From: Trichuris trichiura
Taxonomy: Eukaryota; Nematoda; Enoplea; Trichinellida; Trichuridae
Direction of reading: 5' to 3'
Length of the DNA stretch: 64,000 bases
NCBI GenBank assembly: GCA_037903355.1
Contig: JBAJFE010000034.1
Location: 124,001 to 188,000, forward strand
Part shown: piece after piece, positions 25,210 to 58,800 of the stretch
Numbering within the stretch: the stretch's first letter is position 1
Layout of the letters: each line of letters opens with the position of its first letter
Position numbers and translations under genes: made by a program
Notes under the pieces: model-generated
What the model was told of the DNA's origin: nothing
The model's input: only the letters and a program-made list of their open reading frames with translations
Databases searched by the model: none

Positions 25210-25268
25210 AGAATCTTACTTGTTGGGTTTCTTTTACGGAAATTTGTCCCGTTGATAATATTTATTAT

Positions 25269-25309
25269 TCCGGAGCTTTCGGGTCAAGCGAGACCCGTTT
25301 TCAGCGGTG
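25269..25309 (-). ncRNA. Hammerhead-like motif, left arm of palindrome 1 (core altered)
   Basis: Minus strand CACCG, CTGAAAA, C, GGGTC, loop TCGCTT, GACCC, GAAA, GC, TC, CGGAA. The conserved GA of CTGANGA reads AA, so this arm is predicted to be inactive. Confidence 0.5.
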
Positions 25310-25936
25310 TTAATATAAAGCAACGACGTAACGAAAATTCACGGTGTCAAAATGATGTGATGGGTGTTGCGCGGGGATGTTTTAACTGTTTAAAGTCAAT
25401 TGTTTTAAAGTAGATATCATTGTGTCTTTATCTTCTGTCTGTCAGCTAGCCATTTCTTGTTGTGGATATATGTTGTTCTTCGGAATTATCATTTTAAGAT
25501 TCCTCTCCATTTTTGTTGGTTTTGATCCGTAGTTCATTGTGTGTTTAGTCAAGGGAGCAGCATTTAGACCGGGCGATAATGTTTGCCCATAGTTCATTTA
25601 TTTCTGCTCCTTGATCTGAATGGAATGGATCTGAATGAATAGAAATAAATGAACTATGGGCAAACATTATCACCCGGTCTAAATGCTGTTCCCTTGACTA
25701 AACACACAATGAACTACGGATCAAAACCAACAAAAATGGAGAGGAACCTTAAAATGATAATTCCGAAGAACAACATATATCCACAACAAGAAATGGCTAG
25801 CTGACAGACAGAAGATAAAGACACAATGATATCTACTTTAAAACAATTGACTTTAAACAGTTAAAACATCCCCGCGCAACACCCATCACATCATTTTGAC
25901 ACCGTGAATTTTCGTTACGTCGTTGCTTTATATTAA

Positions 25937-25977
25937 CACCGCTGAAGACGGGTCTCGCTTGACCCGAAAGCTCCGGA
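25937..25977 (+). ncRNA. Hammerhead-like motif, right arm of palindrome 1 (core intact)
   Basis: Plus strand CACCG, CTGAAGA, C, GGGTC, loop TCGCTT, GACCC, GAAA, GC, TC, CGGAA. All positions of the family core are kept. Confidence 0.55.
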
Positions 25978-26081
25978 ATAATAAATATTATCAACGGCAC
26001 AAATTTCCGTAAAAGAAACTCAACATGAAACTATACGGTCCCGTACCAAGAAGTTACATTTTCAAAAGAATCTTACTTGTT

Positions 26082-28920
26082 CCACAATTCCTTCAATTTA
26101 TTGTTTTCCATTTCCTCCATAAGCACTATGTGACCAACGTACTTAGCTGAGTGCAACAGGGTAAGTACTTCTTGCGAACAAGGGAATACTTCTAGTTGTT
26201 TCATACGTGAAAGAAAGCCTATTTCGTCATAGTGAGCAATATCAATTATTTTTCAAATTATCGCGTCACAGCACAAAGAGTTCTTCCAAATAGTGACAGT
26301 CTTGTGACGACCGGTAGGTAAGCTGGTGTGCTGTACTTTAGTAGGTAAAGACAAACAGGAAAAGTTTCAAATTTGTTACGTTATCAAAGAAATTAACAAA
26401 ATTTCACCGATCCGAATTTTCGCCTTGTGGCAAAATTTATTTATTCCGCAAGAGCAAAGAAAAGCAGCGAAACTTTTTCTCCAAATGTAAAGCGTCTCTC
26501 CAGACAAAATCAACCTAGATAAGGTTGCACCTATTGCCTCAAAGTTAAATGTAATGCTTCGAGCATCGTTTCAATACAATTCCGTTATAGTGACAGCCAA
26601 AGTTTTTGAAGAAGAAACTGTCTCTCGTAAATCATTACTTTTCTACTACTTACAAGTTTTTGCCCTGTACTGCTCGGCATCAACTAAAACTTGGAGCGCT
26701 TGACGTTGCTGCAGATGATGTTACCGCAGCCATCAAGTTGGCGAACGATTCAAATTTGGGACTATTGTTTTCTCTAAACTGTGTAACACGTTCGCTGATG
26801 AATGGGGTGCATAGTAAAGGATGTTCGTTGGGAAATTTGTGCAGTACTGAAATGACATGCGGTATATTTATCATATGTAGAAAAAGACGGTTTGCTCAGC
26901 CTATTATTTTATCAATCTAACCTGTTCCAATAGTTTCTTTACCGGGGGATTGCTCCTGTTCTTGAAGGTGAGGCAATGTGTCACCTGTTGTCTGGAACAT
27001 CAAATGAAAAGCCTCTTAGGGGGTGCTGAAGATTGCGTTTGCATTTTTGGCGGTGAGTAGGGTAGAACGCATCATATGGAGGGAGTGGGAGACCGGCAGA
27101 ATGTAGAAATGACTATTTTACTAAAATAAGTAGCGAATAAAGAATGGCGATAAATCAATGAGAAAAGATCCTTTAAAATACTACGCTAAATGCATTTTAT
27201 TATCTAAATATTTCACCAATATTTTCAGCTCAGTTGTGTACTGCTAGTAAATTGTTTTCTCTTTTTGCGTGCATTTCCGCATGTTTCAACTATTCTCTTT
27301 GACTAAAATCTCCTTGTAGATTCCCTTGGTTTTTTAGTTTACCATTAAGCACTTTAATGCATCTGGTCCGCTTAACCTGAACCCAGTAACTCAAAACTGT
27401 ATTGAGGCTCCGTTGCGAAGTGTTATTAACGTCGAACCAGCTCGAATGAAGTGAAAAATAACCAAATAATCATTTCGACTAATGGAATAACGCGCAATGT
27501 GGGTTTGTTTCGGCACCTACAACGTTTATATATTTACGGGAAATCAAAGAAACGTGGCAGTCATCGTTCGAACCTGCGCATATCGGTTACAGCGTTGTTA
27601 TGGGTTGTTTCACAATCCATAGTCGTCGGGAGATGTTGCTTTGTGCTTGCCAGTCTACCGTCTGTTCCTGTGTATGACCTATGTATGGGTGGTATAAAGG
27701 ACAGACTCGGGTGGACAAGTTTGGGAGAAGAACCCGCTTCTAGTAAGTTCATGTTTTTGTGTTCCTAAGGCAGCACGCATACGATAAGAGTAGTTTTTAA
27801 GCAATTTTTCCCCGCGTCTCGTTCATTTCTGTTGAGTGTCTCATATTACGACTTTTGCAGTCGTCTCATGGTGACGACATAAAAGTAAAATTTGCTTTGA
27901 ATCATGTACAAATAAAAGCAACTTCTACTTTTACTTCCCACCGATGAAACAACAGGAAAAGCCATCGTAAAAGTGGCATCATGAAGCTTAACTGCTGCTA
28001 ATAGAGAAGCTGGATCTTCAAACATGTGTTTAGTGTTTATATTTTCTATACGCACTTTTGCTCCTTAACGATGAATATGAATCTGCCATTGGTCTTTCCG
28101 TTAAAAGACGGCAGATTTTTCATTAACCCCGAAGCACTTGGTCGCGCCTACATAGATCGTCCGCTCATTAGGATAAAGTTTCAACTTTTTTCAGCTGCTA
28201 TCGTTATTAGCACATTTCATCGATGCAGTCGTATGCTAGTGCTGGTCTATCGTAGTGTCAACTAAAACATTTACATTTTACTATAATGGTAAACTAATAC
28301 TTTAATAATCACGGCGGAGATACTAGAAAAGAATGCAAAAGCGCGAACTGCCTACTCACGCTATCGCTTCCCACCAGTGCAGTGTGTCCCAGCCTCTTCA
28401 AGTTTAGGGTATCCTTTAACAAGTCGCGTCGTTGGGTTGCTCCCGCAGCTATTCCCTCTCGTCCTTTTTCTGCTAAAACTATTGAAATCAATTGTCCCTT
28501 TTTCTTCCATGGATCTTCTTGGTCTCGATTACTTCCCGCGGCCTGTTTCATTATTGTAGGGCCCCAAAGAGCGCTATTGCCGTTGGGAATTATTGCGGAG
28601 TGAATGTATTGCACTTGACAGAGTGCTCGAGTTCACTGTGTTAAAGGTGTCCATAATTTCTTATCTATCAATGGTCATAGTTATTGGATAAACGCATTTA
28701 TCGTCTCTTTCTCTCGACTAAAATCAGTTGAAGGATAGGTTCGTAGGAACTAAACTTTAATGGCGTAATTTTTTCGCAGACGAGCTGATTTCTTCAGAAT
28801 TTCAAAGCTCAATTTGACTAAAAGTGTTGCCAATAGAGTTTAAGTTTATTATTTTCAGCTGAAGTTGATGACGAAGTTGGCGGGAAACACCAAAGAGCAC
28901 GGGCCCAGGCTAGCTGGATA
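26082..28920. other. Intergenic spacer (middle part)
   Basis: No coding exon, RNA gene or repeat was recognised. Several open frames of about 100 codons occur on both strands, with no motif and no splice-consistent extension. Confidence 0.45.
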
Positions 28921-28930
28921 ACGAACCCGG

Positions 28931-29250
28931 ATGGTTTGGGATTTTAACGCCGCGTGGCTACCGATGAACTCATAACTTTCTGGTTTGGGTATTTAATGCC
29001 ACGCGGTCACCAGTAGCCTCAATGCCCTATAGTTTGAGTTTTTAATGCCACGGCGGCCTCCAGTCAACGCAGTCCCAAGTGTTTTGATGCCACGTGGCTA
29101 CTGGTCAATTCAAGACCCATTGGTTTGGGTTTTTAATGCCACGCGGCCAACAGTCAACAATGGGCTCTATGGTTTGAGCTTGTAATGCGCGTGGCCACTG
29201 CTGAACTGAATGTTCAGTGGTTGAAAGTTTTAATGCAGCTTGGCCACTTG
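28931..29250 (+). repeat. Degenerate minisatellite, about 49-bp unit, 6-7 copies
   Basis: The core GGTTTGGGTTTTTAATGCCA, followed by CGCGGCCACCAGTCAA, recurs with starts near 28932, 28981, 29030, 29075, 29121, 29170 and 29218. Units differ by substitutions and small indels. No known family recognised. Confidence 0.8.
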
Positions 29251-29924: not shown

Positions 29925-30083
29925 GCTGCTGCTCCCTTACACTGCTGACAGCGGAACAAGAGCAGTGTAGAACTGTTCTGTATTTTCTCTAACAGTTCGC
30001 TCATCCATTCGTTGGTAGGGCACTTTGAAGTTTATTTACAGGTACATCCAACGAGCCAAACCCGTGAACCGAAGATTAACCAT
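29925..30083 (+). mobile_element. Diverged second copy of the short HHR-bearing element
   Basis: It aligns by eye with the nested element at 18353-18547 (read in opposite orientation): a degenerate hammerhead remnant (CTGACAGCGGAACAAGAGC), then GCTCATCCATTCGTTGGTAG, then TTTATTTACAG, ending in ACCATGAA. Boundaries are approximate and no target duplication was found, as expected for an old copy. Confidence 0.5.
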
Positions 30084-32160: not shown

Positions 32161-35100
32161 TTGCCTCCTTAGTTTGTTCAAGTTCAAGTTGTTCTGTTTG
32201 AAAAACGTTATGTGGACGATTTGGTTGCATAAATGCGAAGGCAACAGGAAGACGTAACAGAAAGGCAGTTTAATAGAAAACTTTTAGCGTGCGCAAAATA
32301 GCGGGCAAAAGGAAAAGTTACAGAAAAACTGAACATTGAGGAAAACTAAATTTGGTCATTATATAGCGGACCAATTCAAGTCATTAAACAATGCATAAAC
32401 CTTTCATATTGTTTAAAAGCCTCCAAAGTTCGTAGCGGGGCATATATAGATCTGCTTGGAAACCGTACGAATTTTCGCCTTTGTTGGGGAAAGCATTTTT
32501 GCAGGTGAATAAGTGTTATCCGGACGTTTCCATGTTCTTTCATTCTACTACGTAAACGAACCGCTTTGGGGTGGTAAGTTTAAAGAAAGTAATTGACTAA
32601 AAGCTGCAATGTAATCTAATAACCGATCAGCTCAGAAGAAGGTAATGTACACTTTCTTAAAGGGCGTATATGGCATTAAAAGAGCACTTCTAACCACTAG
32701 TATCATCCGGACGAGAGATTGTCGAATAAAACATCCCGATTCTACTTATTCTCATTTGGCTTTTCTTTTCCTCCCTCCCGCTAACTAAAGTCCCCTTTCT
32801 CTTCTGGTATAACTGTTTATCTGTTCGCTGCCTTTTCACTCAAACTTCTCCGTGCCCATTATTGCCCTTTTTCCTTGCACTGATCTCTAAAAATTATGTT
32901 TTTTTCCTGTTCACATTTATCGATTATTAAATTATGTTGTGCCTTTTAAACAGTTACTTTCCTTAAAATTTTCAGGTTAAGAAAACCCTGCCGCCTCAAG
33001 GAGTAGTTTAATTCCCGCGGGGTCAGAGGCAGACAGCGACGCCCGAATAGCGACTGATGGTCTGTCAAAATGCTTGCTCCGATGTAGGCTAAAAACCGCA
33101 TTTTTTCAAACCATCGTCTCTTGTTACTCAGGCGTACGAAATATATTAAATCAATCTTTATTGAACCATGGAAAGCGATCTCTGAAGAGCACTAAAAAAC
33201 CTGTTAAGAAGAATGAAAACGAAAAGGAAAAACTATGAAAAAGTTGCGTAAAACAGCCGCAGTGTTTACTAGAACACGACAGCCGAGTAATAAGAGAAAT
33301 TTTCGCTCAATGTCGGGCGGTAACTCTGTTTTTAACGTTTATAATTAGATGCATAATGAAGAAATTTATTACGGATATGTTCCGTTTGTTTTGTATATAA
33401 AAAGACTCCGGAGCTTTCGGGTCATTCGAGACCCGTCATCAGCGGTCTTAAGTTGTAAATATGAATTGTGGCAGCGACTGCCATCTATCGTTTTTGAGGA
33501 TTTTAAAGCGGGCATTTTAAAGCTTTCTGTTTGTAGGTTTTTGTATTTGAGTCTGTCAGCGCACTTCTTTTTCTTGTTCCGTATAGCTTCTAGATTGCTT
33601 TTGTTGGGTTGTTTCGAACATTTTTTGTTGTTGAGTCACTGTTTTTCCATTTTGCATTCATTTTCTTCTTTTTTCTTTCTTCTTTTTTTCTTTTTCTTTC
33701 TTTGTTCCATTTATATTGCAATTTTATCCATTTCTATTTGTTCTAATTATTTGTTTTTTCTTCTTTCCCGGCTATTGTATTTCATCTGGTGAGTGATCCC
33801 GACAATAGCCGGGAAAGAAGAAAAACAAATAGAAATGGATAAAATTGCACTATAAATGGAACAAAGAAAGAAAAAGAAAAAAAGAAGAAAGAAAAAAGAA
33901 GAAAATGAATGCAAAATGGAAAAACAGTGACTCAACAACAAAAAATGTTCGAAACAACCCAACAAAAACAATCTAGAAGCTATACGGAACAAGAAAAAAA
34001 AGTGCGCTGACAGACTCAAATACAAAAACCTACAAACAGAAAGCTTTAAAATGCCCGCTTTAAAATCCTCAGAAACGATAGATGGCACTCACTGCCACAA
34101 TTCATACTTACAACACAAGACCGCTGATGACGAGTCTCGAATGACCCGAAAGTTCCGGAGTCTTTTTATATACAAAACAAACGGGACATATCTGTAATAA
34201 ATTTCTTCATTATGAAAACATATTGTTCCGTACCAAGAAACCACGTTATAATTAGATCCATCCTAATGGCAGTCATTTGGCTGAAAGTCCTTTGGCTGAC
34301 AGATCGTTTTCCTTGAGGGAATAAGAAGATGCAGAATGGGTGAAAAGAACAATTATCAAAAATTTCGAATGCGTTGGGACCCTGAATTCCCTGCGGAACA
34401 AAGGATGGAAGAAAAATTGCGTAGCAATGAATGCATAATACATGGTGCGTTCGGCTATTCTCTTGCCATGCAACAGGAAGATTTCTGCAGACATAGTGAT
34501 GATAGGCCTTGAAGTACAGCCCATTTGTGTAAAACTATAAATACATTCTTTCCTGTCCCATTCTTCGTGAATCACGTGAATTATTCCTTTGCTTAACTTA
34601 CTAATGGAGTTCACGCTACGCATCTGATCATCACTTAATAATTGCTTCGGTTAAGCTCCAGTGTTGCTGCGCTGCAGAGTTTCTGTTCAAGTACCCTTTC
34701 TGTTATTCGATAATTGAGTCAAGGAGAAAGAGTAATCAAGATAGTATTCAGGCTTTCAGTGCATAATTGTTCTTTTCAACCATTCTGCATTCTTACTCGC
34801 TCACGGAAAACAATTAGTCGGCTATACGACCTGTTGGTCATACAACTTGTCCGCCAAACAACTGTCAGGCAAATGACTGTGACCGTAATCCAATTAGCCA
34901 ATTGAAAATAAAGAAAAAGTATGCAATATCTCTACGTTGTAATACGTATAACACTTACCTTGTGTAAATTAGATCGAGGCAAGGCTAATTTCCCCAACAG
35001 CGCATTGGGCGCATCGCTGGCTAGATTCTTGTTAAATAACTCTGCCAAAAGTATGCGCAGAACGGTGGCATCGGCAGCGTCTTCTATACGACAACCATAA

Positions 35101-38100: not shown

Positions 38101-41100
38101 GCAAATGTCAGCTCACAGTCACATGATTGTAGCCAATCTTCTCAGCCAGTTCGCGTGTCGACTGTCGTGGATCTTCGTGTACTAGGGCGTTCAGTCTCTC
38201 TTCATCAAAATCGCTTGGCCTCCCTGACCTCACACTGTCACTCAGATCGAAATTTCCCTCCCTAAAGCAAGAGAACCACTTTCTAGCTGTTCGATCGCTG
38301 ATAGCCTCTTTCTCGTAGATCGCCTGGATCTTTTCAGTCGCTGCGAAAACACTTAATCCTCCGTTATACAGGAAAAGCAGCACGTGTCGGAGATGCTCCT
38401 TTTTGTCGACCTGACACTCTATCTTTCCAGTTAAGCTAAAACTTCTCAAGAGCGCGATATTAAAATTTAACTGTACTAACTTGCAGATTGTTGTGTCTCG
38501 TGACAACGCTACACAGGGCCAAGGGACTAGCAGGGCTATAGCCACACGGCTGCCTCTAGCGTTGACCACGAACAACACAGAGAACCTAATTTCAGAGGAT
38601 TACGGTGTGTGGAACAGAGGTGTGTGACGGTTGGTTGTGTTTATCATGTACGCTCTGGAGAGTAAACTCTTGCTTGGAACTTATTAACTGGCGACGAGTT
38701 GACGAACTCAGCACTAGACTGAACGTTCTCATGGACGGACCTAACTCAACCCGCATTTCCTTATACCGGGGATCACTGGAGCAGTTTGACGTGCAGTCCG
38801 GCACTGAAGGCTGGGAGCAATGGACATAACGATTCGAAATCTTCGCGGACGCGAACCAGGTACCAGAGCCTGATCGCCGCATGCTCCTGCTGAATCTCTG
38901 TGGGCCTGAGGCGTATCGGTTGATGAGGGAGGTAGTGGCACCGGATAAGCCCAGTACGAAGTCGTTCAACGAACTTGTGCAAGCAGTTAAAGACAAGTTC
39001 GATCCAATCCCCGGGGTGTACGCGGCCCGTCCTGCGTTCTATGCAAGAACACAACAGCCTGGTGAGTCTGTCGCTACCTTCATGACAGAATTGCGACGTT
39101 TGGCAGCCCGATGCCAGTTTGAAGCGACGCCGACTGTTAGCGAAAGAGGTGACTCCCAACTGCACGATCAGTTATTGATTGGAATGGCTGACTCGGAGAC
39201 GCGGCGCCGTGTCTTACGTGGGCCGAAGCTCTCTCTGAAAGAGCTTTACAGGACACCCCTGCTCGGTGAGACCGCACTGGCACAATCGAAATTGCTCGAC
39301 ATGCAGGCAGCCACGGCGTTCGAGCCTATGGTTCACGGAGTAAGTAGTAAACGCCCAGGTAAGAAAAAGCACCAGGCCGCTTCAATGACTCAAGCAGACA
39401 GGTGTTGGCAATGTGGCGTTGAAGGGCACACCTCAGACTCCTGCCGATTCAAGGACTTGTTCTGCCATCGTAGCCCCAAAAAAGGACATGCCGGGAAAGC
39501 ATGTCGCAGCAATTTGCCCAGTAGGGCCCCCCAGCCGTCAATCAGGCTGCCAGGGGATTCCAGGAATACTTCCTGTCGAGGAAGAATTCACGCTGTCGAT
39601 CAAACGTCGTTTCGGCGGGAGGTCTCGAGCTCAGAATCAGATGGGGACTTCTCATTGCAAATAGCTCGAGTCGGTGCATTCAAGGTACATTTGACTTCTT
39701 CCCATCAGTATAAAGTAGAGCCGACCGTCACTTTGACAGCCCTGGTCAACGGAGTCAACATAGAGTTCGAAGTGGATAGCGGTTCAGCGCTAACCCTTAT
39801 TAGTGAAAAAAACGTTCTATAAGTTGTGGAAAGGGCGCCCCCCGGAACTGAGAAAATCGAAGTTGGAAGTGAAGACGTGGTCAAGGGAACCCGTGACGGT
39901 GTTGGGCTCGTTTCAAGCCGACGTGCAATATAGGCAGACCAAGTGTACATTGGAGCTGTATGTGACGCGAAATGGCGGGCGACCGTTATTGGGTCGATCA
40001 TGGTTCCGGCCGCTCAACATAAGCCTAAGGTTAGCGACGCATCAAGTTTCTTGTTCACTGCTGAACCCCATAACGCCCGCGGGTGGTGGCTGGCGTCAGG
40101 TAATGGCGAACTACGGCCAAGTCTTTCAGCGCGGATTGGGGCGGTATACTGGGCCACCAATCCACATTGAATTGATTCCAGGAGCTAAGCCTCGGTTCCT
40201 CAAGTGCCGCCCGGTGCCATTCGCCCTGACGGACCGTGTGAAAAATGAGATTGAACGGCTAGACGAGCGTGGAAGTTTAGAGCCGGCGCGTTGGTCCGAC
40301 TGGGCTTCGCCGATTGTCACGGTGCTCAAGAAAGGGGGAGATGTGCGTATCTGCGGAGATTACAGCGCGACCGTCAACTTGGTCACGAGGAAAGATGTCT
40401 ACTCCATACCTACGGTAGCGGAAATGATGACGGTCCTCGCTGGGGGGGGGTATGGTTTTCGAAACTCGACCTTGCTGAAGCGTATCACCAATTGACGTTG
40501 GACAAAGAATCAACAGACGTGCTAACGTTGGACACCCCGAAAGGTCTCCGCCGAATGAAACGATTACCATTCGGAGTGGACGTCGCTCCCGGAATCTTTC
40601 AACGTCTAATAGAAACATTGCTGCACGGTATTCCGGGTATTAAACCGTACTTGGATGACATCCTAGTAACGGGGAAGTCGGAACTGGAGCATAACCAGCG
40701 GCTGGACCGGGTACTTAGGGTGCTAGCTCATAATGGCCTTCGGCTCAACAAAGAAAAATGCTGCTTCGCGGCTAACGAAATGGAATTTCTGGGGTTTCGG
40801 GTGACCAAACACGGAAGCCATCCGACTGAAGAAAAGCTCAAGGCCATCAAGTTAGCCCCGCCGCCCAAAAACGTGAAGCAACTACAGGCCTTCTTGGTAT
40901 GTTAAATTTTTATTCAGTTTTCTTACCGAAGAAGGCAACCGTGTTGGAGCCGCTCCACTGCCTTTTGGACGCGCCCTCAAGGGTACATTGGCGATGGGGG
41001 CCGAAAGAACGGGCGACGTTTGAGTCCGCGAAAGAACTGCTGACGGAAAACGCGGTGCTAGCTCACTTTGACGGAACCAAACCACTGGTCCTGGCATACG

Positions 41101-44100
41101 ACGCGTCAGATTACGGGCTACGAGCTGTGCTGAGCCAGGTGGAGAACAATGAAGAAAAAGTGGTAGCCTTTGCTTCGCGAACGCTATCAAAAGCGGAAAG
41201 GAAATACGGCCAGATCGACAAGGAAGCGTTAGCTCTTAGGTTCGGTATTAAAAAGTTCCATCAATACTTGTTCAGCCGACATTTCACAGCTGTCACGGAC
41301 CACCGGCCGCTATTAGGATTACTGGCCACTAAAAAGCCAACTCCTACAGTAATGTCAGCTAGGATGCTCCGATGGCGATTGTTCTTGACGGCTTACGACG
41401 TCAGTTTGGTATACCGCAGCGGAAAGGCAATGGGCAACGCTGACGGACTAAGCAGACTTCCCCTTCCTACCAGCGAGGTTGGCGGGGACTCAACAGGCGA
41501 GAAGTTCGCTGAAGCTCCTCTGTTCGTTGATGTCTTGATGGTGGGAGACGAATCGGAAGATGATGTAGGCGAAATGAAGCTACTAGACGCCAATACAGTG
41601 GCCAAACTAACCCGTAAGGATCCCGTATTGTCCCGCGTACTGCACTGGGTCTTACGGGGCTGGCCCAGCGTAGCCCAGGGTGACCAGTTTACCCAGTTTG
41701 TCAAACGCCGCGAGGAGCTGTCGGCAGCCCGTGGCTGTTTACTATGGGGTTCGAGGGTCATCATTCCGAGGAAGCTCCAATGGAGTATCTTGGAAGTGCT
41801 GCACGATGCTCACCTTGGAATGGCTCGCATGAAGGCACTAGCTAGAAGCTACGTGTGGTGGCCAGGGATAGATAGTGAAATTGAGTAATGGGTCACCAAT
41901 TGTAACGGCTGTCAGCAGCATAAGGACAGGCCGCCAACAGCACCACCTCGAATTTGGAATTGGTCACCGCGGCCTTGGTCTAGGATCCATATCGATTTCG
42001 CGTGGCTCTTCCAAGGCAAAATGTATCTACTGGTTGTTGACGCCCATTCGAAATGGCTAGAAGTAGAACCGGTGTCGTCAACAGACTCCAGGCAGGTGAT
42101 CTATTGCTTAGCGCGGCTGTTCGCCACCCACGGACTGCCAGATGTTCTGGTCTCAGATAACGGACCTTCTTTTGATTCAAAACATTTCCGCAAGTTTTGC
42201 TGGGCCAACAAGATAAAATTCCTGAGGATCGCACCATACCATCCCGCCTCAAACGGCCAGGTAGAAAAACTAGTCCATACGACGAAGCAGGCACTGCGAG
42301 CCATGGCGCCAGACAAATGGGGAATAGCGCTCAGCCGCTTTTTACTAAATTATGGGCTCACGCCCCACTCGGCAACGGCGGTCTCACCTGCAGAAATCCT
42401 ACTACGTCGGCGTCCGAAGTCTCTGCTGGATAATTTGCATCCAGATTTCTGGACGTCTACGGTAAAGGCACAGGAAGAAGATGCCACAAATTTAGCGGGA
42501 AGGGACAACAAGAAGGCTCGAAGTTTCAAGGTGGGCGACCGTGTTTGGGCTCGAGACTTTCAGGCACATTCGACTGCTAAATGGACGGCCGGTGTGATAC
42601 AGGAAGTCATTTCCCCACGATCGTACTGGGTCGAGCTGCCTCAACTGGACCTACGTTGGCGTCGGTCAATTGACCACCTACGGTATAAGGGTAATGGAGC
42701 ACCCACAGAAGATGCTGACGGCGAGAGAAGAACCGCGGTCGAGGTACTGAGGCCACAGGCAGTCAGTATGGACATTCCTGCGAAGGAACCAGAGTCGCAT
42801 GAACCTCGTATGAACTCGCATGAGGAGAAGGAATCTGAGGCTCCCTGCCTCCCCCCAACAGAGTTAGCTTCGCCGGGAGCAACAACGGCCACACGTCGAG
42901 AAGTTGTGAAGCAGGAGCCAGCCTTACAGGAACGACCGGCGCGGAATCGTCGTCGGCCGCGGTATCTGGAAGACTACGTCGTTTAGGGAGGGACGGGTGT
43001 TGTGTCCCGTGACAACGCTACACAGGGCCAAGGGACTAGCAGGGCTATAGCCGCACGGCTGCCTCTAGCGTTGACCACGAATAACACAGAGAACCTAATT
43101 TCAGAGGATTACGGTGTGTGGAACGGAGGTGTGTGACGGTTGGTTGTGTTTATCATGTACGCTCTGGAGAGTAAACTCTTGCTTAGAACTTATTACAGAC
43201 AACATCGAGAGGTACTAGATGATATATACTGCTTGGCATGAGAGCAACTGCGTACAAAAAGAATTTACTTCTAAAGAAAACGGAACGAACTTATGAAACA
43301 ACCCAATACTACAAACTGAATTTCGCTGAGGCAATTTAGTAGGCAAAAATGGCAGCGGGGTGTAGCTTACCGAAAGAATAGCTTCCTCCGTAGATTCCAA
43401 GCGACATTTCATATCCTCGTACTGCGAATGAACGGTCAAAAAAAAGTAATTCGAGAAACAGTTCTACGAACCTCTTCAAGTACTTCGCTACGACGCTTCT
43501 CGAGGTCAGGGTTTATTTCTCTAATGGTTAGAGAGAGTAGTTGAGAAGTGAGACCACTTTCTACTAAGGAAAAATCTATTTTCATTAGGAGCGCTTCTGT
43601 GCAGGAAGGCAACGAAAGGAACGTCTGGTCCGTGCATCTGCAATACGCGCATTCTAACTGCACAAAGAAAAACTGCAGGTTACAAGTATAGTTTGAATTT
43701 TTCATGACAATCAACAACTTTTTCGCCAACTTTCATTATCCGTCTCCCGCCTAAGTCAAAGAAGCGAGTAAAAGGATGCTAATGAAAAAATAAATCAACT
43801 CACCTTGATAAATAAACTGATCTCGCAAAACTGCGTGCAAAACTGGGTCTATACCATTCACATCAAAGAGAATGAGAGTCTTTCCGAATCGTATAGAGAG
43901 TTCCAACTGAGTAACGTAATTTGCATTCTGAAATGTTAATTGGTCCTTAGTATTTAAAAAAGGAAGTTTTACATGATAACAGCATTTCTACATTGGATTA
44001 TCCTTTTAACATTTTTTTGTGAGGCACTTAAGTGGATTGCTTCTACGTTCCTGGCAAAATGATAATGCTACATGCTTTGCCTTTATGCAAAATATTACGA

Positions 44101-46791: not shown

Positions 46792-46859
<68 letters not shown>

Positions 46860-49800
46860 AACCTAATGTGAATGAATGCGCGTTGTCGAACGATGCATGC
46901 CTGACGCATATCCGTGCGTAAAACTAGCTGGCTAAAGATTAACACACAGAAAAGTTCCAAAGTATTTCGAAAGCACTAATACCTTGCTACTAAGAATATT
47001 TTGTTACGCAGAAGGCTAAGCGTAGCACATATGAACGCCCCTGAGTTATTACCTCTCTTCGTCGCTTCAAGCGTAGAATATTGGCAACAACAGTGGTAGA
47101 ACCGCTAGTAAGATTACTGTTAAGGGAAGATAGCAAAAAGCTCATGATAGTACCGAACTGTTCACAGAAGGCAAGCAAAAGCAAAGTAGCAGCTGAAATT
47201 TTTACTCAGGTAAACTGAGCCCCTGTTAACCTACTGTCAAGTTTCAAAAGCGCAAATCAAGCTTGCACTATTTAAAATAGAAAAAATCGCATACAATAAA
47301 ATAATTAATGCGCACTATTACAGCTTTGCTTAATGTACAATACAGTTAGTGTATAAATAATCTGCTGTGGCGACCACTATTGGTTCTTCAACTTTCCATA
47401 TTGCAGGTGACGGTTGATACACAAAAGCATTCATGTCAAAGAATAGATTTAAAAAATTTGTGCTTTGGGTCAGCGCTCTGCTGCAATTTATTTGGCTCAG
47501 CAACCTGGTTAAACCACTTAGTGAAGAAAAGTAACAGATTGATTAAGAAACTTGAAAAGGCCTTCCTATGGTAACTGTTAGAAATCTAAGGCTCAAAACT
47601 GCAGAATAACTTCCGACGTTTTCAAAAAGATGTCTGAAAAGAGCATTTAGGTTACTCATATGAAGCATCTACTTAGTTTTGCCTACCCTCATTTTGCATG
47701 TCGTTCAGAATTTGCATACATCCGAAACTTAAAACATCTTATGAAATTTTTTAGGAAAGTACCAGTAAATAACAAAGCATCCTTTAACAACAAAACTCTT
47801 TCGAACGAGCATGTGCAGATGCATAATTCAAGTACAGAGTATTTCACGGGCTGAACACTCTGTACTTCAGTTAAACATTCTTTGACGAGAAAAAGTTAAT
47901 TTTACCTAAATAAAGTTCTGTACGCTGCCTACTGAATAAGAAGGAACCTGCAAGCACCTTGAAGGCTCTGCCTTAAACAGCGTTCTACTGGCAGTCAGCA
48001 TGCCCTGAACGAAAAGAAAACTTGATGTCTAGCTAGGCAACAGTGAAATGAACGCAGCGGGTAACTGTGCACATAAAGACAAACATCCGTTTTACCGTGA
48101 TGCTTTCCGTAATTTCTTCCAACATTCCATCGGCTTCCTTTTGTTTTCTGATCAATAAGTTGCTGTTGTGATCAGCCTCTGATTTCAGTTTTTCGGTTAC
48201 GCTGCGAGCCTCGTTCAACTTGGAGATGCCAGACTGTCAAAATGAAAGCATCATCTCTGCTCAACTTCCTTAACATTGTGTTACTAGCTTTTACCTTCAA
48301 AACGGAAAGACGGTCACGGATCGCTGCACTTTTTTCGAATTGAAACTTTTTAATTTGGTTCAAGAAAGCTATATATTTTCGTGGCACTGTGCACTGCTCA
48401 ACGACGGTGCAGTAGACCATTTGAGCAGTTTCCGGAAGTGATGAAACACTTTTCGTGTTAGAAATTGTCTCATCCGCAATCTCCTTTCCATCGTGGACGT
48501 TCAGAACGTACTGGGCTGTCTAAAAAACGAAGCTGCATAAGGAAAAAAATCTACAGTCAGAGAAGCCAACGGTTTAACAGGCGTGGATCGTTAACCAGCA
48601 GGTTAAAACAGTCGCTGGCAGAAAAGTATGTCACTTTTCAAAAACACAACTGCTCACATCCTTTCTCTTCTCACATTATAATTAGCGCTATAGGCTTTTA
48701 AGTATGATCGATAGGATTAAAATTATTTTGATAACTTACTTTCACCATAGAGCTAGTTGTCCATTTGTCGAATGAAATAACGGTGCATTCTCTGAAGCAA
48801 TCCGCGTAACGCCTGCTGACAGGAATTAGCAAGGAATCTCCAACATCCAGAACAAGTATAAGCCTAAGGTTGCGCTTGACGCCTAAGCAGAAATAATATT
48901 CAAAGATGAAATATGGACTGTTACAAAAACGAACGGTGCGTGAAGTAGGAGTAGAGCGTTCCTTCATACGAATCCTGAAATGCTTGCTCACGAAGATTGT
49001 TTAGCAGCGGTTCGATTTCTTCTGGTTTAAACAAGCCTGGTATTTCTCCGCATTTCAGCAGCGAGTATATGGGATCATAAAACTCGGCTGACAAAAGTTG
49101 ATAATCTTCGACAATGAATACAAGAGGTTCGTTCGCTGTACACGCCGCCTGAATGACCTGCTTCAGACTGCTTTTGTAATTCTTGTAATCATATCCGGGT
49201 ACTATAGTTAAGCTGATTGTTCTTAACTGTAGCACATAAGCTAGGAGAGAAATAGCTGTTCTCCTGCCAAGCCCGGATGGCCCAATGAGTACAACAGAGT
49301 TCTTGTAAGAAGAATGAATGGCTCGATCCATTCGAACTACGAGTTTTACCAACTCGTCAATGATAACAATGTTTAAGTCGTACATTTCATATTTAAACGT
49401 AGAAATTGCTTTCTCTAAGATACTACTGATGGCGTCAATTTCTATACGGCAAAGATGAACATCAGACTCTACGCTGCGCACTTTTAAGTCGCTGCCGCTG
49501 CTGAAGGAAACGTAATACATTGACTCTGGAAAAGATAGTGAACAAAGCTAGGCCACATAACACCAGTGAAGGAATCGAAATACCTCCGCCTCCAATTCCA
49601 TCCAGGACCGTTATTTTTTCGTTTTCAAGGATTTCTCTGAAAACAGATTTAAACCGCTCTTTTTCTTCGTGAGTAACCAATCGATCTTCAAAAATACAAC
49701 GCCCTTCGTACAACCATATGCTAACCAACTCTTCGAGAGTCCTGAATGTGCACAATAGCTAGTCGCAAATTTTAAAGATTCAAGATTAACCCTGAATTGT

Positions 49801-52800
49801 TGGCGTAACGCGACAACCCAAGTGCCCAGCAAATAAGGTCAGTCGGAGTGAAGGCGTAATTCATGCAGTTTTCTAAGTCAAAGATGGTGCTTACCTTAAA
49901 CGTCATGTTAAACACAAGGATGTAAACAACAGCCTACTGACCTTTAAGTATAACCTAACCATAGCTCTGACGAAAGAAGATGCAATTGCATCAACGCTTT
50001 GGACAAGCTTAGCCACACAAGGAGCTCGCAAAACAGGTTTAAGAAAAGTGGTGCAGATTAGATGGAGCTCAGGTTCACTTGGGTAGCTGCAAAGGTGTTT
50101 AGGAAACATAGGACAATAGTACGTAATCTTCTCTCTTGCCTTATCCAAAAGACAGGTACCATAGATGCAAATCTGGTCAAACAACTTCTCACGCCATCTT
50201 CTGATAATGAGTTCACGCTGCACACGATCTGAACATTCTGCAAGGTTACCCATTCGAAGTTGCCATCGTAAAACCCTCCACATGTTACTAGCTACAAGCA
50301 GCTCGTGTGGTAAAAAGCTTGAGACGTTCAGACACATGGATAATGAATGCTACCTGTTGCAAAAATGAAACCAAAGCGCTCGTCCCTCTAGCGCTAACTT
50401 TGCATGCGTTCAATGTTCTTATGTAAAGTACTAATTTGTCGCAGTCCTTTGGCCGAAGCCGTTGTCCATGCAAATCGCTAGAACGTGTAGTATATTGCCT
50501 CAGCTTTTCCAAAAGGTGTTCGACGGTAGTTTCTTTGCTGCAATGAACACAGCAGACTTGGGCCGATGGCATCTCTTGGACGCAGAGATGAATGAGGGAC
50601 CTTTAAAAAGATGTAAACATGTTGAATGATAATAAGCGCTTACGGCATTTTACACACATAAAGCAGCAAACAACTAAGCAGCTTCAGGGGTAAAGATAAA
50701 TAATACCTTAGGTTTGATACATTCGATAGCGAATGGGTTATGCAGCAATGGAATGATTCATAATTCAGCATATTTGTTATTCAGTATGTTCGCTAAAATA
50801 TGAATTCAACCTACCATTTGCCACATCCCGTAGGCCCAGCGAGTATGAATGGACGACGGCCTTCGTACATTAAGACATTTAATGTTTCGTGTGCTTCACA
50901 AATAGACACAGATTTTGCTAGCGGGACGTTTGCTGCTGCTCTGACATCCGGAATAAACGACTCTTCAATACAACCATCGAAAGTAATGTACGCGTCATTC
51001 TTTGCATCGTAGGTAATGTTGACTGGACAAGATAAGTCAGGCGGCCTTTCTCCAGCCATCTCAAATAACTATAAAGCAAAAAGACAAGTAATGCCACAAC
51101 ACATGATAGGCTTAAGTTTTGAAGCTGAAGAATCGTGTCAAGCTCAAGATAAGATCAAGTAAAAGGAACTGCTACCTTTACTATCAATAAATTTATCACA
51201 GCGTTAACTTTACTCCATAGCGTGGGAACAGACAAGCTTAAAATAGGCAATCGTACAGTCTTCATTAATATCTTAAAGCCAAACTGGCAACCTTTCAAAT
51301 CTACATTCATACGCAACAAAAAATCATTGAATATTTGCAGTTTTCCAAAGCAACTAATTAGTCGTTCCCCAACATATCTAGAGGAGTTGATGAAACGCTT
51401 ACTTTCACCGTGAATTCTTCTTTGGATTTGCGCTCAAGATTACCTCCAAGACCGCGACACAGCTTTAGTAAAAAGTCCCTTTTCATGCGCACGTCATTCA
51501 GAAGCGATAAGCCGTTCACTATTTTGCCGTGCTCACTCCTTTCAATCAGGGTACCATTCTAAATTAATTACGGAGCAAAACAAAAGTTCAAAGCAATAAA
51601 AACTTATACCATCACTTCGAATAGGACAGCGAGAGAAGATTCGAAATAATTTTGCAACCATGAGCTCAGCTGTTCTCTTGTAACTTCAGCTTGAGTTTGA
51701 ACAAATCGTCTTAGCTGGGCTTCTACGCCAACTGTTCCAGTACTGAAAAGTAGAGAAGCACTTTGTGAACACAGGAGTAGGCGCGTGCGTATCAACTTTA
51801 GCGAAAGCAACCTTCATCTATGACTCCAGAAAAATGAATCACATTTCTACGCATGAATAGAAAACGTTATCGCAAGCAGAATAAAAATAAAAACTCATAA
51901 AATAAAAGTTTTTAATGGCTTATCCATTCGTTCTCCTCACTTTTCAAGTTCTAGCAACAATTTCTCAGAAACACTGCAATAGCCTGAAGCAATATTGTGA
52001 AAGCCTTTAGGAAAACCAGTTCTTGGAAATGAAAACGGTTTTAAAATCTTATTTCGAAGGTTTTAGTTTTGACTTTAGCGTCGCATCAAGCAACATTGAA
52101 TCGGCAGCTTCCATATAACGATCAGCTGAAACCATTCTTTTTTTACTGTGCAGTGGAGGTACATAAAGTCAACAGATTAAGGCAGTGCGAATTGGATGCT
52201 GCAAATATCTGAACCGCGCCTTCATATCTGTGGAAAACGTTAAGCCCATTTCTTGCAGTGCAATTCCAGTTCTGCGCATATTCTCACAAATAAATTTTGC
52301 TCTAACCCTCCATGCAATCAAATTCTCATTGCAAAAATAAGGCGAATAAAAGAGAATTAAACAAGAATTGCAAATCACGAATTAAAGTTTCTCCACCTTA
52401 TGTGCACTTTATATTTTAAAAAAATTAAAAGACTTGCGCCTATTTGTTTATCCATCGAAAACGACTGCACCTGGAGAAGCTTGCGGTGGGTCATAATAGT
52501 GAAGTTTTTTTTTCAAAATGAGAAGTACCAACTTTTGCAGTTGAAAGTAGGGCATCGTGTAACGAGCGTCTAGGTTTTGATCATGGAAACTTACGAAGAG
52601 CCCACTAATCGACTGACTCTGACAAACTCATATTCCACAAACTCTTAAGCTGGTTTCAGGACTGCCGCTTCCGAAAGCTCTGATTTCTCAACCCGTTTGG
52701 TTTTCCACTGACACCGTAAGTTTCCATGATAAAAGTTTCGCAATTTTTCGAATGTAAAATAAAAAAGAAGATTAATAAATTTGAGCAGCGTGAAATTGCT

Positions 52801-55800
52801 GCTTATGATGAGCACAAGTCTAGTTCTATGTCTTTTTTGAACAATCCACTCAACGGAAAAAACAGGAGTCGAATGCAAAACCTGAGTACTCAATTACCTC
52901 AGATAGACGAAACCCATGCGAGATACGGTAGCCGGTGAAGCACTGTGTAGATTGGTACATTCAAAGATGAAGCTTACGTTGCTCCCAATTCGTATACGTT
53001 CTCCGGAAGTTAGCTGTTAAACATTTATGTAGTTGAGCTCATTATGTCTAAGTACCTACGGTCAACAGCTTATTATCATCAAAAACCGAGTTCAATGCTT
53101 CGATCCATTCAGGCTCGATCTCCCCATCGCAAACAATAAACGACCAAACTTCTAGAACGAACCAAACGGGGAAAAGCTAGCAAATAGACTATTTACTGCT
53201 ACCTTCAGATGCACTTTTACGGCATAGGAAAGGAAGTAAGCCGTCGCACCATTCCCTTGTGTCCGGGTTAACGTAACCCAGAAGCTATAAAACTTTATCA
53301 TAAAAGCCGCCATGCATCGAAGGCTCACTTGTCGCTTTGTCATAGCATTTGGATTAAAATGGTAGGCTTTCACTGTTTGCTTCATTTGGGACAAAGCTTG
53401 AAGCAGTATTTTCCAAAGAGTTGTCTTCCCTGAGCCACCTATGTACAATAAATTTGACGAATATGCCCCAATGTAGACCTAAATGTACTTTGACCCAAAA
53501 TGATCACGCCTGTTCGTTGCTGCAATTGTTCGTACAATTCTTGTACTTTAATTTTCTTAAACGAGAAAAGCAAATAATATTATGCGCAATACATAAAACG
53601 TAAGCCGCTTTCACCTGAGTGTCAGTAGGGAAAAAGCCTATGGCAGAGAAAGCTGATTCAATAGCACTACTTAGACTGTCGCTGGGTATGGAAGTGGGTT
53701 GTACGTTAATGAAAACTTGCCGGAGCAATGCATCAAAGGTTTTGCTGTCTTCATCAGTCAATTTTGATAAACAATTCATGCGTAAAGCCATCATAACAAT
53801 GGAGGCTTCTTTTTCCTCAACGGATTGTGCGGGTGCAATATTCAGCTTCATGGTTCTGTGAAAGTGACCAGCATTTGTAGCTACCGACTTTAGAGTCCTC
53901 AAACCCCAGTCGTAGTGTTGCTGCTTTGACAGCGTGTCGCTAAATAAGTCGAACGACGTGAACATGCTAATAAACGACCACACTTGCCGAAATGTTTTGA
54001 ACAGGCAAACCAACTTTGCACCAATTACTTTCGAATGAGTGAATCCTTCAGCCAAAAGCAGATTTTCTGCTATAATTTCATCGTCGGCGGTTAGCATGGC
54101 CACTGGACGAAATAGCAGCTTCAAGTTGTCTGGTATTTTTTGCCGTCCACCGTAATGTTTCCCCGCCGGATTGAGCGTTATAAATATGGCTGAATTGCTA
54201 TTTAGAGGAACCTAAATTTCCAAGACGTGAAAACAAATGCATAAGAACGCAGCTTGGCGCTTTAGTCATTCGAAGGATAGCTTGAAAATGGGCTCACTTC
54301 TCTGTCTAAGAGTTTGCATCGCTCACTTCCTGACTGCAGCGCGCACTGAATAGCTTTGATGTGCATCGCAATTACAGACATTACACTTTCTTCGAGACGA
54401 TTGAATTCATCGAAACAACCCCAGGCTCCGCACTGAACTAAACCAGCAAACATGCGTGCCATGGATCGAACGTCGGCACTCTGGAAGGAGAAACAACATA
54501 CAGCGGAGGAATGAAACGCAAATATGGTAATTATACCTCGTCGCAGTTGAAAACAAGCACCGTTCGCCCCAACAAGGAACCAAGAGCTTTGACTGTCTCT
54601 GTCTTTCCTGTTCCAGTTGGCCCGTAAGGGTTGGCGCAAAAGCCAAGTTTCATTGCTTAACGTGGAAACGATTTAGGAAAACAGGGTGGAGTACTAAAAC
54701 ATTTTACCTTGGGTAAAGGTCAAAAAGCACCTGTCCGTCAGCGGGGTTTGGACAAGTCTAGTTATCTGGCCTGTATACTCGAAGCCGTACTTGAACGAAG
54801 CATCAAGCTGTTTAATCACAACATCACCGGTTGCTTCCACGTAGAACCTGAACATTTGTTTTGCGACTTTAATTCGTTAGGAGATACCAGCCACCTTAGC
54901 TGCTTCTGCCAATACCAGCAACCAGTAGAATCAGATTCATGCTCGATTAGGTCATCCAGAACAACAACGGCATGCACGGCGTCAAGAGTGAGTGCTTTTA
55001 ATTTGGACTGCAAGACGACTGAATCTGGCTGAATTGATGCGTAGGTGTTGATCTGAATTTTCAATTTTCTATGCAAGTCTCTTAGGGTTTTCGACTGCAG
55101 AGCCTTTTCGCATAGGTTACAAAATCGGATGCGTTCAGCGAGGCACAAAATCTAAAAGTTCATTATTCATCTTTGACAAAGATGGCGGCGTAGGGGTTTA
55201 CCTGGCACGGATACTTTGAAGGGTCAAGCGGAATGCCTTTGTTAATAGCACTTAAGGCTGCCTGTAGCAAATTCTTTAACGTGTACTTGATCGATTCTTC
55301 GAGCGTTTTCATCCATGCCTGAAAAATGACAAACTGTCGGTAGCGGGAACGCGCGAAAAGTATTTACCCAATCATTTTCAATTATTTCTACGGCTTTTCT
55401 TAACTGAACCACTTCTCCATCCGCTGACACGATAGCCGTAAGCGATTTTGAAGACGGACTAAAGTGTACTGTGCTAACTGACGGAAACAGCTTTTGAATG
55501 TGAGCTTTGATTATGTCTGGTTGATCAGCCTGACCAAGAATGGCAAGCAGATCATCATCACCGACGAAGTAGAATCGAGGAAACTGGCAACGTTTCTCCT
55601 TATGGTAAGTTTTCTTTTAAAAAACAAGTTAATAAAACTTTATCAAGCAAGGCTACCTCCAAGTAGTAATTTAACGCCTTTTGGCATTCCAGCAGTTGTT
55701 CGCGCATACTGCTGAACTGGATTTTGGATATATCTGGAGAACGAAGGTTCATCACCCTACCGTCTTGTTCCAGCCGGCTCATAATCGCACTGGATTCAGA

Positions 55801-58800
55801 GAAGCCTTAGCAAGCGCAAAATCAAAGGAGAAAACAATGAAATACCGAAAATTATGGTCGACCTTTTGAAAACGCGACCAATCTTTGGGCAAAACCCCTT
55901 TGCTAAAAATCGGTTCCAAGTATACCCATCTGCGCTGAACTTCAAGTAAACATTGAATTCGTTCGTTAAGGTCAACCAAACTTTCTTGCCAGAAAGTTCT
56001 CTTGTCGAACTGTACGTTGTTAAGCGAAGATTTTTTGATCGACTCTAACAGAGCTTGTTTATCGTGAACCTTAGACAACGTGCATTGTAAATTCTGCAAA
56101 GTCAATACAATCAAGCGGACGTACTTGGTTTAAAACGTCATTCCAATTGGTTATCACGCCTGGAGTTTGGTGCTTCTTGTCGCTCGGAAGATTAAGCTGA
56201 AAGGTGCACGTCGCAGCCCATGTATCCAATTCAGCTATGGCTTCTCTAACTGATACTTCAACTTGAGCGGACGAATTAAGCTTCTGAAATAGTTGCACTA
56301 GTATACTTGCAGGACAAAAGTTGTACCAACTTTGATGTTGGATATTCCATCAATGATATTGTCTGAAGCGAGGAGAAGATTTCTGAGAACCAACTTGTCA
56401 TATTTCACGTCAGGCGGTAGCTTCAGCAAGCGGCAAAACTCTACCCAATGGTCAGAATCGAAATGCTCTCCGATGCAAAACTTTAAATGCGGCAGTAGAG
56501 CCTGCAATAGGGCATGCTTAATGGCACTTTACTCTCTTCATAGCTTATCTACCAAGTATTTATTCAAGCTTGCTTGAACTCGACCTGTTACGAAGTTGAC
56601 AGGGAGGTTTCTCAGCTTCTCTTTCCAAGTATTCAAAAAGTCAGCAAATACGTGCAGCTTTGTCCTGCAAAACACGTTAAGCCAATTAGTTAACCAAACA
56701 AAAATTATGCTCATGCTACTACTCATTAATTATGCTACGATTAACATTTTTAATAAAATGGTAGAGCACATTAGACGCTTCGACAGCTGCTGTCCAACGC
56801 AAAAGTGTCTGACTATTGATGATCGTTGTTAAAACATGATAACAAACAGAATATGAAGATTAATTTATTAAGTAGAAATCGCAGGCATAATACTTTAAAT
56901 GTTAGGCAGCGACATCCTGCGGGCTTAAATCTTTTTTTAAGACTGCAGAAGGAGTGGATATACTCTGGCAAATGCATAACAACAAAAAGATTAATGCCAT
57001 TCTCACCTAAAAAGAAGCCATTCTTCCTTTCCGAGTTCGTTCAGGGTTGAGGTGAATTGCCGATAGGGTAGCCATACTGCTTCGCTGGATATTAGACTTC
57101 TCTTAACCTCTTCAAGATTGCTAAAATCGGGTTTGTCCAGACCAAGGTCTTCTGCCTCTATCCTGAAAAGCAAGGCTGACGAATAAGCAGCTACTTCATA
57201 GCATAAATTAAAGAGCACATAAAGGATATCTCGTGGTAACATTTATGTGCCATGGAACCCACTGATAACTAAATTTTTGCCTGGAGCTTCCTGTTTTACC
57301 ACTGAACCATTTTCAGCTGTGAAGAGGAATCGAAAGCGGCATCCTGATTAGTCTTTACCGCTGAACACGGGTCAAGGGTGCATCTGAAAGCTCCAGGTAA
57401 AAATTTGATTATCAACGGGGCCCGCCGTACTTAAACATTGACATTAAAATCTACGAACCCGTTACAAAATGTTATGTATACAAAAGCTTGCTAAGTAAAA
57501 AAAAGTGGAAAACTTGTTACTTCTTGTAACAGGCCCAAAACGTTTCATTCTTTGGAACTCAAACAATTGCGTGAACTTTTTTTTCGATGATGAAAGGACA
57601 AGGATGCACCGAATGCCTCGAGTACACTACTTAAGATTTCAATAAAATATTTTCATTAGGTTGCTTCTTTTTTTATATACGGATTGTGAGTCCCGTTGAA
57701 AAATTTTACTACTAATTTCTCCGGAGCTTTCAGGTCCAAACGCGACCCGTCATCAGCGGTCTTAAAATGATGTAATGAATAAAGTGCATGGGTGACGTGC
57801 AAAGTGTAGTAGCTTGCACGTCACCCATGCACTTTATTCATTACATCATTTTAAGACCGCTGATGACGGGTCGCGTTTGGACCTGAAAGCTCCGGAGAAA
57901 TTAGTAGTAAACTTTTTCAACGCGACTCACAATCCGTATAAAAAAGAAATAGCCTAATGAAACTATACGGTCCCATACCAAGAAACTATATCTTCAATAA
58001 AATATTTACCCTTTGACAGGCCAAGGTTCCAAAAAAATTCCAAAGAAAGAAGGAAAGAGCAGCCATACCTACTCTAACAAATTTGTTCCAAATTACTGAT
58101 GTTAGAGTAAAACCTCCTCAATCCGGACGTGTCGGGGCGGAGGGTAGTTTGAACTACGGAAAAATCCGGTTTATTTAAGAGGCTTACAGTAGGTCACAGA
58201 AAAGCTGGTAGTGCAATTTTAGACATAGGTTCCTGGTGGCCACAGCGCGATGTCAGTCTTTGCAAGCGGGAATTTAGTTTACAAGAACGGCGGAGTCCAT
58301 TTTTTTAAACCGTGCTTATTTGCGACCTGCTCCTTTATTAGTCACAGGAAAACAATTTTCCTGGCGATGTGCCCCAAAACCCAATTTTCGTATACTTTCC
58401 GTGTCTTGCATAATGTGTTCTCGTGTAACGCAAGGTTTTCCAGGAACTAATTTTCGCATTATATGAGAATAGATTGTGGTTTTCTACGATTGAAAAACAG
58501 CAGGCCATTGATCCACATTTCTGTTTATTTGGGGAAGCCTAGGTTTCTGGGTGCCATGCTGCAGTCAACTTATTGGTCGAGATTGGTTCGGCATAGCCGT
58601 GGCTAGTCGGCGCCTGTGCTAACGTATACTGAAAGGACCGTTGGCTGGTTGTTCGCGGCCCTTATAACCGTTGCCGCCAAGTGACTGTTCATTTCGCACA
58701 GGTAGCCTAATTACGCTTAATGTATATGGTCGTTCTATTGTTCCCTTCAACGAGTCCAGATTAGGAAGGTTTTACTGTATTAATGTCTCTCGTGTTCACA

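Follow-up and report, generated by a model that had tools for sequence, protein, structure and literature searches.

Three palindromic loci in the window

The window analysed here is a 64-kb stretch of the Trichuris trichiura genome (contig JBAJFE010000034.1), drawn from an assembly of 72.7 Mb in 62 contigs, and the analysis rests on the sequence data of this one genome. Exploring the window, we found three palindromic elements that carry parts of a Penelope-like element (PLE), a retroelement encoding a reverse transcriptase (RT) and a GIY-YIG endonuclease. Each consists of two inverted arms around a short single-copy centre and is flanked by a target-site duplication (TSD), as an earlier note on this DNA had claimed. 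The arms are 397 nt long and 97% complementary at locus 1 (25216-25612/25634-26030), 401 nt and 96% at locus 2 (33352-33752/33814-34214) and 140 nt and 96% at locus 3 (57663-57802/57814-57953). With the arm ends as reference points, the centres come to 35, 23 and 11 nt, in agreement with the separation of 11-35 nt given before. TSDs, previously put at 12-15 bp, were present with slightly different lengths: 15 nt without mismatch at locus 1 (starts 25210/26067), 16 nt with one mismatch at locus 2 (starts 33339/34246) and 15 nt without mismatch at locus 3 (starts 57638/57993). A tail derived from the start of the PLE open reading frame (ORF) is found at one end only in all three loci, again as claimed. 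The arms contain the pseudo-long terminal repeat (pLTR) of the PLE, alone at locus 3 and together with the 3' untranslated region (3'UTR) and final codons at locus 1. The features of the three loci are as follows, with HHR denoting the hammerhead ribozyme.

25210..25224, no strand: left TSD copy of locus 1, the 15-mer AGAATCTTACTTGTT, identical to 26067-26081
25225..25612, minus strand: tail-less PLE copy of locus 1 (pLTR, 3'UTR, final ORF codons), HHR-like core altered
25634..26024, plus strand: tailed PLE copy of locus 1, head-to-head with the copy at 25225..25612; HHR-like core at 25942
26025..26066, plus strand: tail of locus 1, the first PLE ORF codons (ATG AAA CTA TAC GGT CCC GTA CCA AGA ...)
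26067..26081, no strand: right TSD copy of locus 1
33339..33354, no strand: left TSD copy of locus 2, 1 mismatch in 16
33355..33778, minus strand: tail-less PLE copy of locus 2; HHR-like core at 33414 (minus strand)
33802..34211, plus strand: tailed PLE copy of locus 2; HHR-like core at 34124
34212..34245, plus strand: tail of locus 2 (PLE ORF start)
34246..34261, no strand: right TSD copy of locus 2
57638..57652, no strand: left TSD copy of locus 3
57653..57802, minus strand: tail-less PLE copy of locus 3 (pLTR only); HHR-like core at 57727 (minus strand)
57814..57956, plus strand: tailed PLE copy of locus 3 (pLTR only); HHR-like core at 57860
57957..57992, plus strand: tail of locus 3 (PLE ORF start)
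57993..58007, no strand: right TSD copy of locus 3

The earlier description had to be amended at locus 1. One hammerhead-like motif per arm on opposite strands holds for loci 2 and 3; at locus 1 the plus-strand core fits the standard pattern and the minus-strand core was recovered by a loose pattern only, as the conserved G8 reads A there. Furthermore, the arms are not entirely non-coding, since the inner arm ends of locus 1 carry, as read by eye, the final 19 codons of a PLE ORF, EINELWANIITRSKCCSLD, followed by its stop codon.

The motif sits ~50-100 nt upstream of the ATG in these elements. We take it to be the minimal PLE hammerhead type described by Cervera and de la Pena (2014), a work cited in PMC7229834. 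CUGANGA and GAAA are retained in 83 of the 140 places found with the loose pattern. Analysis of 22 motif rows, chosen by eye from 60 distinct rows that themselves come from the 85/140 places fitting a stricter pattern, revealed that 92.6% of the cells of stems I (3 bp) and II (5 bp) are paired. Both partners differ in 14 cells, compared with 2.9 in shuffles (0/500) and a maximum of 6 when the stems were slid. A cleavage site inside the tail (AUA before CGGUC, by eye) was considered and dropped, as its stem III would be one pair; CUC↓CGG is preferred because an AG/CU stem III fits there and stem I covaries. The Rfam hammerhead models had no match in the window, and the Rfam microRNA matches in it reflect the hairpins. 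Where arms span the HHR, the RNA copied into them was not cleaved there. The idea that HHR cleavage sets the turning point of the palindrome was unsupported, the shorter arm ending below 100 nt in 5/35 elements only; the counts of exact-core palindromes given below are silent on it, as their pattern demands a core on both sides. By eye, a compact family starting TCTAAAGTTGTAAATAT has many of its turning points ~16-19 nt before the HHR on the 5' side, which would fit a preferred 5' end of the template RNA, and the centres of compact palindromes often carry short duplicated filler.

Orientation, ends and coding content across the genome

To survey the genome, we searched it with the three window loci as queries, taking the best 40 candidates of each; coordinates were entered manually, with one match per arm. 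The searches yielded 110 arm clusters. Of these, 47 are simple two-arm clusters, 9 are full palindromes, 48 show a single arm and 6 are multi-part. All 47 simple two-arm clusters are head-to-head with their 5' ends inward, and some of the multi-part clusters hold same-orientation neighbours. The queries are themselves palindromic, and the short locus-3 query is biased towards full palindromes. Two complete lists of exact matches (89 and 32 places) avoid this bias, and in these, neighbours within 6 kb were head-to-head in 15/15 and 5/5 cases. No close direct pair was found among the two-arm clusters or the exact-match neighbours within 6 kb. A pattern requiring exact cores on both sides of a gap gave 121, 75, 29 and 10 matches for gaps of 10-40, 41-71, 72-102 and 103-133 nt, 235 in total, with some double counting across bins possible for places that hold several cores; the reversed-pattern control gave 0 in every bin. 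A tail pattern of 23 nt allowing up to 3 mismatches matched 733 places in the genome and its control none. The inverted shape described from three loci is common in this genome, with 20/20 close arm pairs of the two complete lists head-to-head, and the outcome that the earlier note had named as damaging, a majority of direct copies, did not materialize; yet 48/110 clusters are single-arm at the depth searched. Extension of 14 of these 48 single arms with inner DNA revealed a partner in 7, some of them mere stubs of ~26-36 nt.

The ends were analysed in 35 elements, comprising 34 from 47 genome stretches and an old pair at 17568-19508 of the window, the window loci being counted once. Across these elements the centres range from 0 to 3044 nt, placing the tight palindromes of the window at one end of a continuum; 15/35 centres are at most 62 nt, a count that includes C7:4391842, which has a faulty arm estimate, and C34, where the pairing is internal. 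Arm lengths range from ~26 to 1953 nt. A TSD score of at least 9 was reached by 27/35 elements compared with 26/1190 mismatched flank pairs, and a score of at least 11 by 25/35 compared with 3/1190, indicating that the TSDs in the window are not due to chance. TSD lengths are 11-17 nt. Counted from the A of the start codon, the 27 elements with TSD have their tail-less end at -6 to +5 and their tailed end at +27 to +43. The tail, scored as at least 14 of 23 letters, is present at exactly one end in 31/35 elements, at both in 2/35 and at neither in 2/35. The earlier proposal that the one-sided tail arises from the integration process is supported by these end positions, the tail reflecting where reverse transcription starts. 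In C34:1198914, pairing of the outer ends gives a 19-nt TSD with one mismatch, the tabulated pair having used an internal ORF start, and C4:820999 is a nested element. Odd cases are C26:1564541 and the second pair of C24:346767, which have two tails and no TSD, and C26:599683, described below.

Three long copies, likewise head-to-head, have arms of ~1.84, 1.41 and 1.95 kb with 95-98% identity, placed around centres of 299, 1449 and 924 nt. The Pfam domain RVT_1 (cut-off 29.6) scored 52.7 bits in L063:2794-4662 and 40.9 bits in L061:1034-2023, was below cut-off in L061:2628-3791 and had no match in L063:1877-3058; GIY-YIG (cut-off 22.6) scored 25.0 bits in L061:3198-3791 and had no match in L063:565-915. 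The left copy of L063 extends to the ORF start, and its translation (..GPVPRSYIYK..) agrees with the tail codons listed above, which identifies the tail as the first part of this ORF. The PLE features found here are thus an RT, a C-terminal GIY-YIG domain, a one-sided tail of 30-40 bp at the ORF start, a short TSD and a minimal hammerhead in the pLTR. The involvement of PLE machinery suspected from the window is borne out, and the notion of a distinct non-autonomous family is not, as copies with RT and GIY-YIG arms have the same architecture: the palindromes are part of a continuum of head-to-head RT and GIY-YIG PLE insertions and not a separate class.

A few individual loci deserve mention. 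C2:668858-668923 and C5:6933-6998 have an identical palindrome centre in opposite orientation, representing either a duplicated segment or a re-copied palindrome. C9:6278158 and C9:6340701 are nearly identical palindromes ~62 kb apart, perhaps by local duplication. C26:599683-604424 (L047/L048) is a tail-less palindrome of PLE arms whose mirror symmetry extends into the flanks, and is probably a larger inverted duplication.

Origin of the head-to-head arrangement

From the observed ends, TSDs, orientation, tail rule and relatedness of the arms in some of the elements we infer dual priming, template sharing and end joining, and consider it probable that the palindromes are insertion products of GIY-YIG PLEs generated by dual-strand priming and head-to-head joining of complementary DNAs (cDNAs). 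The PLE enzyme would cut both target strands ~11-17 nt apart, and each freed 3' end would prime reverse transcription of the PLE RNA at the pLTR-ORF junction, one priming at ~+38 of the ATG and leaving a tail, the other at about the ATG and leaving none. The two antisense cDNAs would run towards the RNA 5' end and their ends would be joined head-to-head (5'-end to 5'-end), sharing little homology or gaining a few filler bases. The cDNAs may both come from one RNA or from RNAs of one source; the use of a single RNA for both is plausible and partly supported. Short templates or early stops would give palindromes of ~220-900 bp, and long ones would give copies with RT and endonuclease. More tentatively, target priming may normally be coupled between the two ends of a PLE insertion and use a single RNA. 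A dimeric RT-endonuclease would then hold one active site at each of the two neighbouring start sites and serve one cut strand with each; every insertion would then begin head-to-head with one tail, and the pseudo-LTR geometry would follow. We regard this wider proposal as possible but doubtful.

Private variants common to both arms totalled 33 in the nine A1 pairs and 37 in the six A2 pairs, compared with control means of 0.25 (A1) and 0.48 (A2) per pair and a control maximum of 4. Four of the 15 pairs exceed this maximum (locus 1 with 16, C28:897389 with 23, C28:632900 with 7 and C26:599683 with 6), indicating that in several elements the arms come from the same source and that the second arm was made during integration. 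For these pairs the suggestion of the earlier note to that effect is upheld; the other 11/15 are within the control range. Arms of the A2 type are each other's nearest relatives in 12/12 arms, C7:4391842 excluded. In the compact palindromes, the mean loop/gap ratio is 0.324 compared with 0.5 for a random split (z -5.3, crude null), calculated on the 76 complete strings with both cores within 48 nt among the matches listed (50 of 121; 50 of 75). Turning points nearer the middle of the gap would fit two cDNAs reaching the same RNA 5' end, whether on one RNA or on RNAs with a fixed start. This test replaced an earlier permutation (45/65 vs 31.8, with 11/76 strings left out), which was confounded by subfamily structure.

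Arm lengths were compared in 29 pairs, the resolved ones among the 72 clusters of two arm searches, with 9 read from match coordinates and all lengths entered manually; the comparison sets aside the third arm-search sample, the three window loci (these three found as palindromes) and unresolved clusters. For C7:4391842, where the arms failed to align and the tabulated arm length is wrong, ~109 nt was used. A length difference of >62 nt favours the tailed copy in 15/29 pairs and the tail-less copy in 6/29, including the TSD-flanked cases C19, C45, C1:6108605 and C2:3871374, and the arms are near-equal in 8/29. The near-equal class exceeds the 2.5 pairs expected in the pooled set (permutation p 0.0008). 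Split by source, it gave 3/20 vs 1.29 (p 0.13) for fetched elements and 5/9 vs 3.56 (p 0.20) for coordinate-read ones, and a coupling of the arms to equal length was dropped because neither subset alone is significant.

Several observations weigh against insertion by dual priming on a shared template. The near-equal excess arises largely from pooling two differently chosen sets. Shared private variants number 0 in C44:185691, C45 and C28:950092 and 1 in C19 and C4:820999, and the arms of C44:185691 differ asymmetrically, with 11 vs 0 private sites, which suggests two template RNAs for this element. The arms of one element are mutual nearest neighbours in 13/20 (A1) and 6/16 (A3) cases. Seven of the 14 extended single arms had no partner even in the added inner DNA, one of these, C2:2262841, having a correctly oriented exact-core match 4.8 kb away, just beyond the DNA examined. 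The two elements tailed at both ends and the two without a tail depart from the rule, the TSD search window assumed a tail on one side, and 8/35 elements had no TSD, also with open search windows. Finally, no strand difference in start site was seen in vitro for the purified anole PLE (PMC11167929), which a rule of one site per end does not predict.

An alternative that we consider unlikely as a general explanation is a snap-back, in which the tailed cDNA would fold on its own 3' end and copy itself into the tail-less arm. It transfers to cDNA the self-priming that was proposed, on an antisense template, for the junction palindromes of Adineta vaga (PMC3846280), and it accounts for similar arms and small loops. 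However, a fold-back copy cannot exceed its tailed template, and the six longer tail-less copies, four of them flanked by TSDs, therefore reject snap-back as the sole route. In addition, the tail-less end is at a fixed position as judged by the TSD, and loops of 0-1 nt, present in 7/76 compact palindromes, leave little room for a hairpin turn unless they were shortened afterwards. Snap-back could apply to a subset of elements, as the tailed copy is clearly longer in 15/29. A self-standing non-autonomous family, whose RNA would itself be a palindrome copied in trans, would account for the many compact copies (gaps 10-133 nt) and for the one centre common to C2:668858 and C5:6933. We hold it to be improbable: centres differ among most copies listed, RT-coding copies have the same shape, and A2-type arms are mutual nearest relatives, even though this is so for fewer of the A1 and A3 arms.

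Long-read data can contain false inverted repeats, and assembly or library artefacts might thus produce such palindromes. Divergence of the arms by up to ~9% within elements and the TSDs flanking 27/35 loci make this very improbable here. A DNA transposon or miniature inverted-repeat transposable element (MITE) with long terminal inverted repeats has least in its favour. Inverted repeats and TSDs would fit, but such elements have repeats of fixed length and symmetric ends. Here the outer end is fixed while arm length varies from ~26 nt to ~1.95 kb, a tail is carried on one side only, and RT and GIY-YIG are encoded by those long copies that were examined.

Neighbouring features and known systems

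Two further PLE remnants were detected in the window.

17568..19508, no strand: old head-to-head pair of PLE copies, each arm holding fragments of the GIY-YIG region; arms ~782 nt, 91%
5035..5180, minus strand: single short arm with tail; HHR-like core at 5135

The first of these had been described as the GIY-YIG PLE at 17-20 kb; it is itself an old head-to-head pair, in which neither tail nor TSD was recognised. A different hammerhead-like motif (CTGACGACGGAAC...) lies at 18490-18540 on the minus strand, in the middle of this pair, interrupting the GIY-YIG region. A partner was looked for next to the arm at 5035..5180 and none was found. Elsewhere, the window holds a von Willebrand factor type D domain (2418-2954, plus strand), a fragment of a Mos1-type mariner transposase (HTH_48; 38111-38599, minus strand), a Gypsy-like LTR retrotransposon with RVT_1, RNase H and integrase whose ORF is broken into overlapping frames (38830-42986, plus strand), and fragments of a gene for a dynein heavy chain (AAA_8, AAA_6, DHC_N1; 48924-63640, minus strand), between which locus 3 sits, probably in an intron.

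In twin priming of the L1 retrotransposon, both target ends prime reverse transcription, which produces an inverted 5' part, and L1 inversions are normally without the same 3' segment repeated at both ends. The elements described here would resemble them in priming from both target ends and differ in that the same segment lies at both ends. Animal retrozymes carry direct tandem copies of an HHR unit; no such copies were found close together among the two-arm clusters, and the exact-match neighbours were inverted in 20/20 cases. Retrozymes are presented in PMC7229834 as non-autonomous hammerhead retroelements with canonical type I HHRs and circular RNAs, whereas the elements here have a minimal HHR and inverted arms.

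The earlier note knew of no described class with this shape. The shape is, however, already known from Adineta vaga, where Penelope elements (Pen2a and others), according to the 2013 report, have inverted pLTRs with a 31-bp tail on one of them and a TSD of 9 bp, with 8-10 bp as the range of TSDs and the head-to-head form as the most frequent inverted arrangement (PMC3846280); inverted pLTRs and short 3' extensions are also listed in PMC8969392. The Adineta elements, from the same account, are of low copy number and often have an additional direct pLTR, whereas the present genome has hundreds of tail matches and many two-arm palindromes of compact form, with TSDs measuring 11-17 nt and no close direct pair among two-arm clusters or exact-match neighbours.

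Biochemically, Frangieh 2024 places the PLE tail between two in vitro RT start sites and has the enzyme extend both strands. According to PMC11167929, the purified anole PLE (Poseidon of Anolis carolinensis, PAc) cleaves both strands and extends them, begins reverse transcription at two neighbouring internal sites with the 'tail' between them and is a predicted dimer, while HHR mutants leave insertion unaffected. On this evidence, shared with PAc are RT and GIY-YIG, the tail as the stretch between RT start sites, an HHR near the ORF start and, if our reading of the present elements is right, cutting and extension of both target strands. PAc differs in that its HHR overlaps the ORF start, which here is some 50-100 nt downstream of the motif, and in that it occurs in tandem repeats, without mention of a head-to-head product in the available part of PMC11167929. 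No proposal of dual priming at two start sites was found for PLEs in searches of open papers, seen mostly as listings, and the rule of one start site per end in genomic insertions is the new part.

PLEs are retroelements of poorly understood mechanism, and in vitro work, with its two RT start sites and both-strand extension, left the completion of insertion unexplained. The many TSD-bounded products with one end per start site make dual priming, template sharing and end joining testable statistically and then in vitro.

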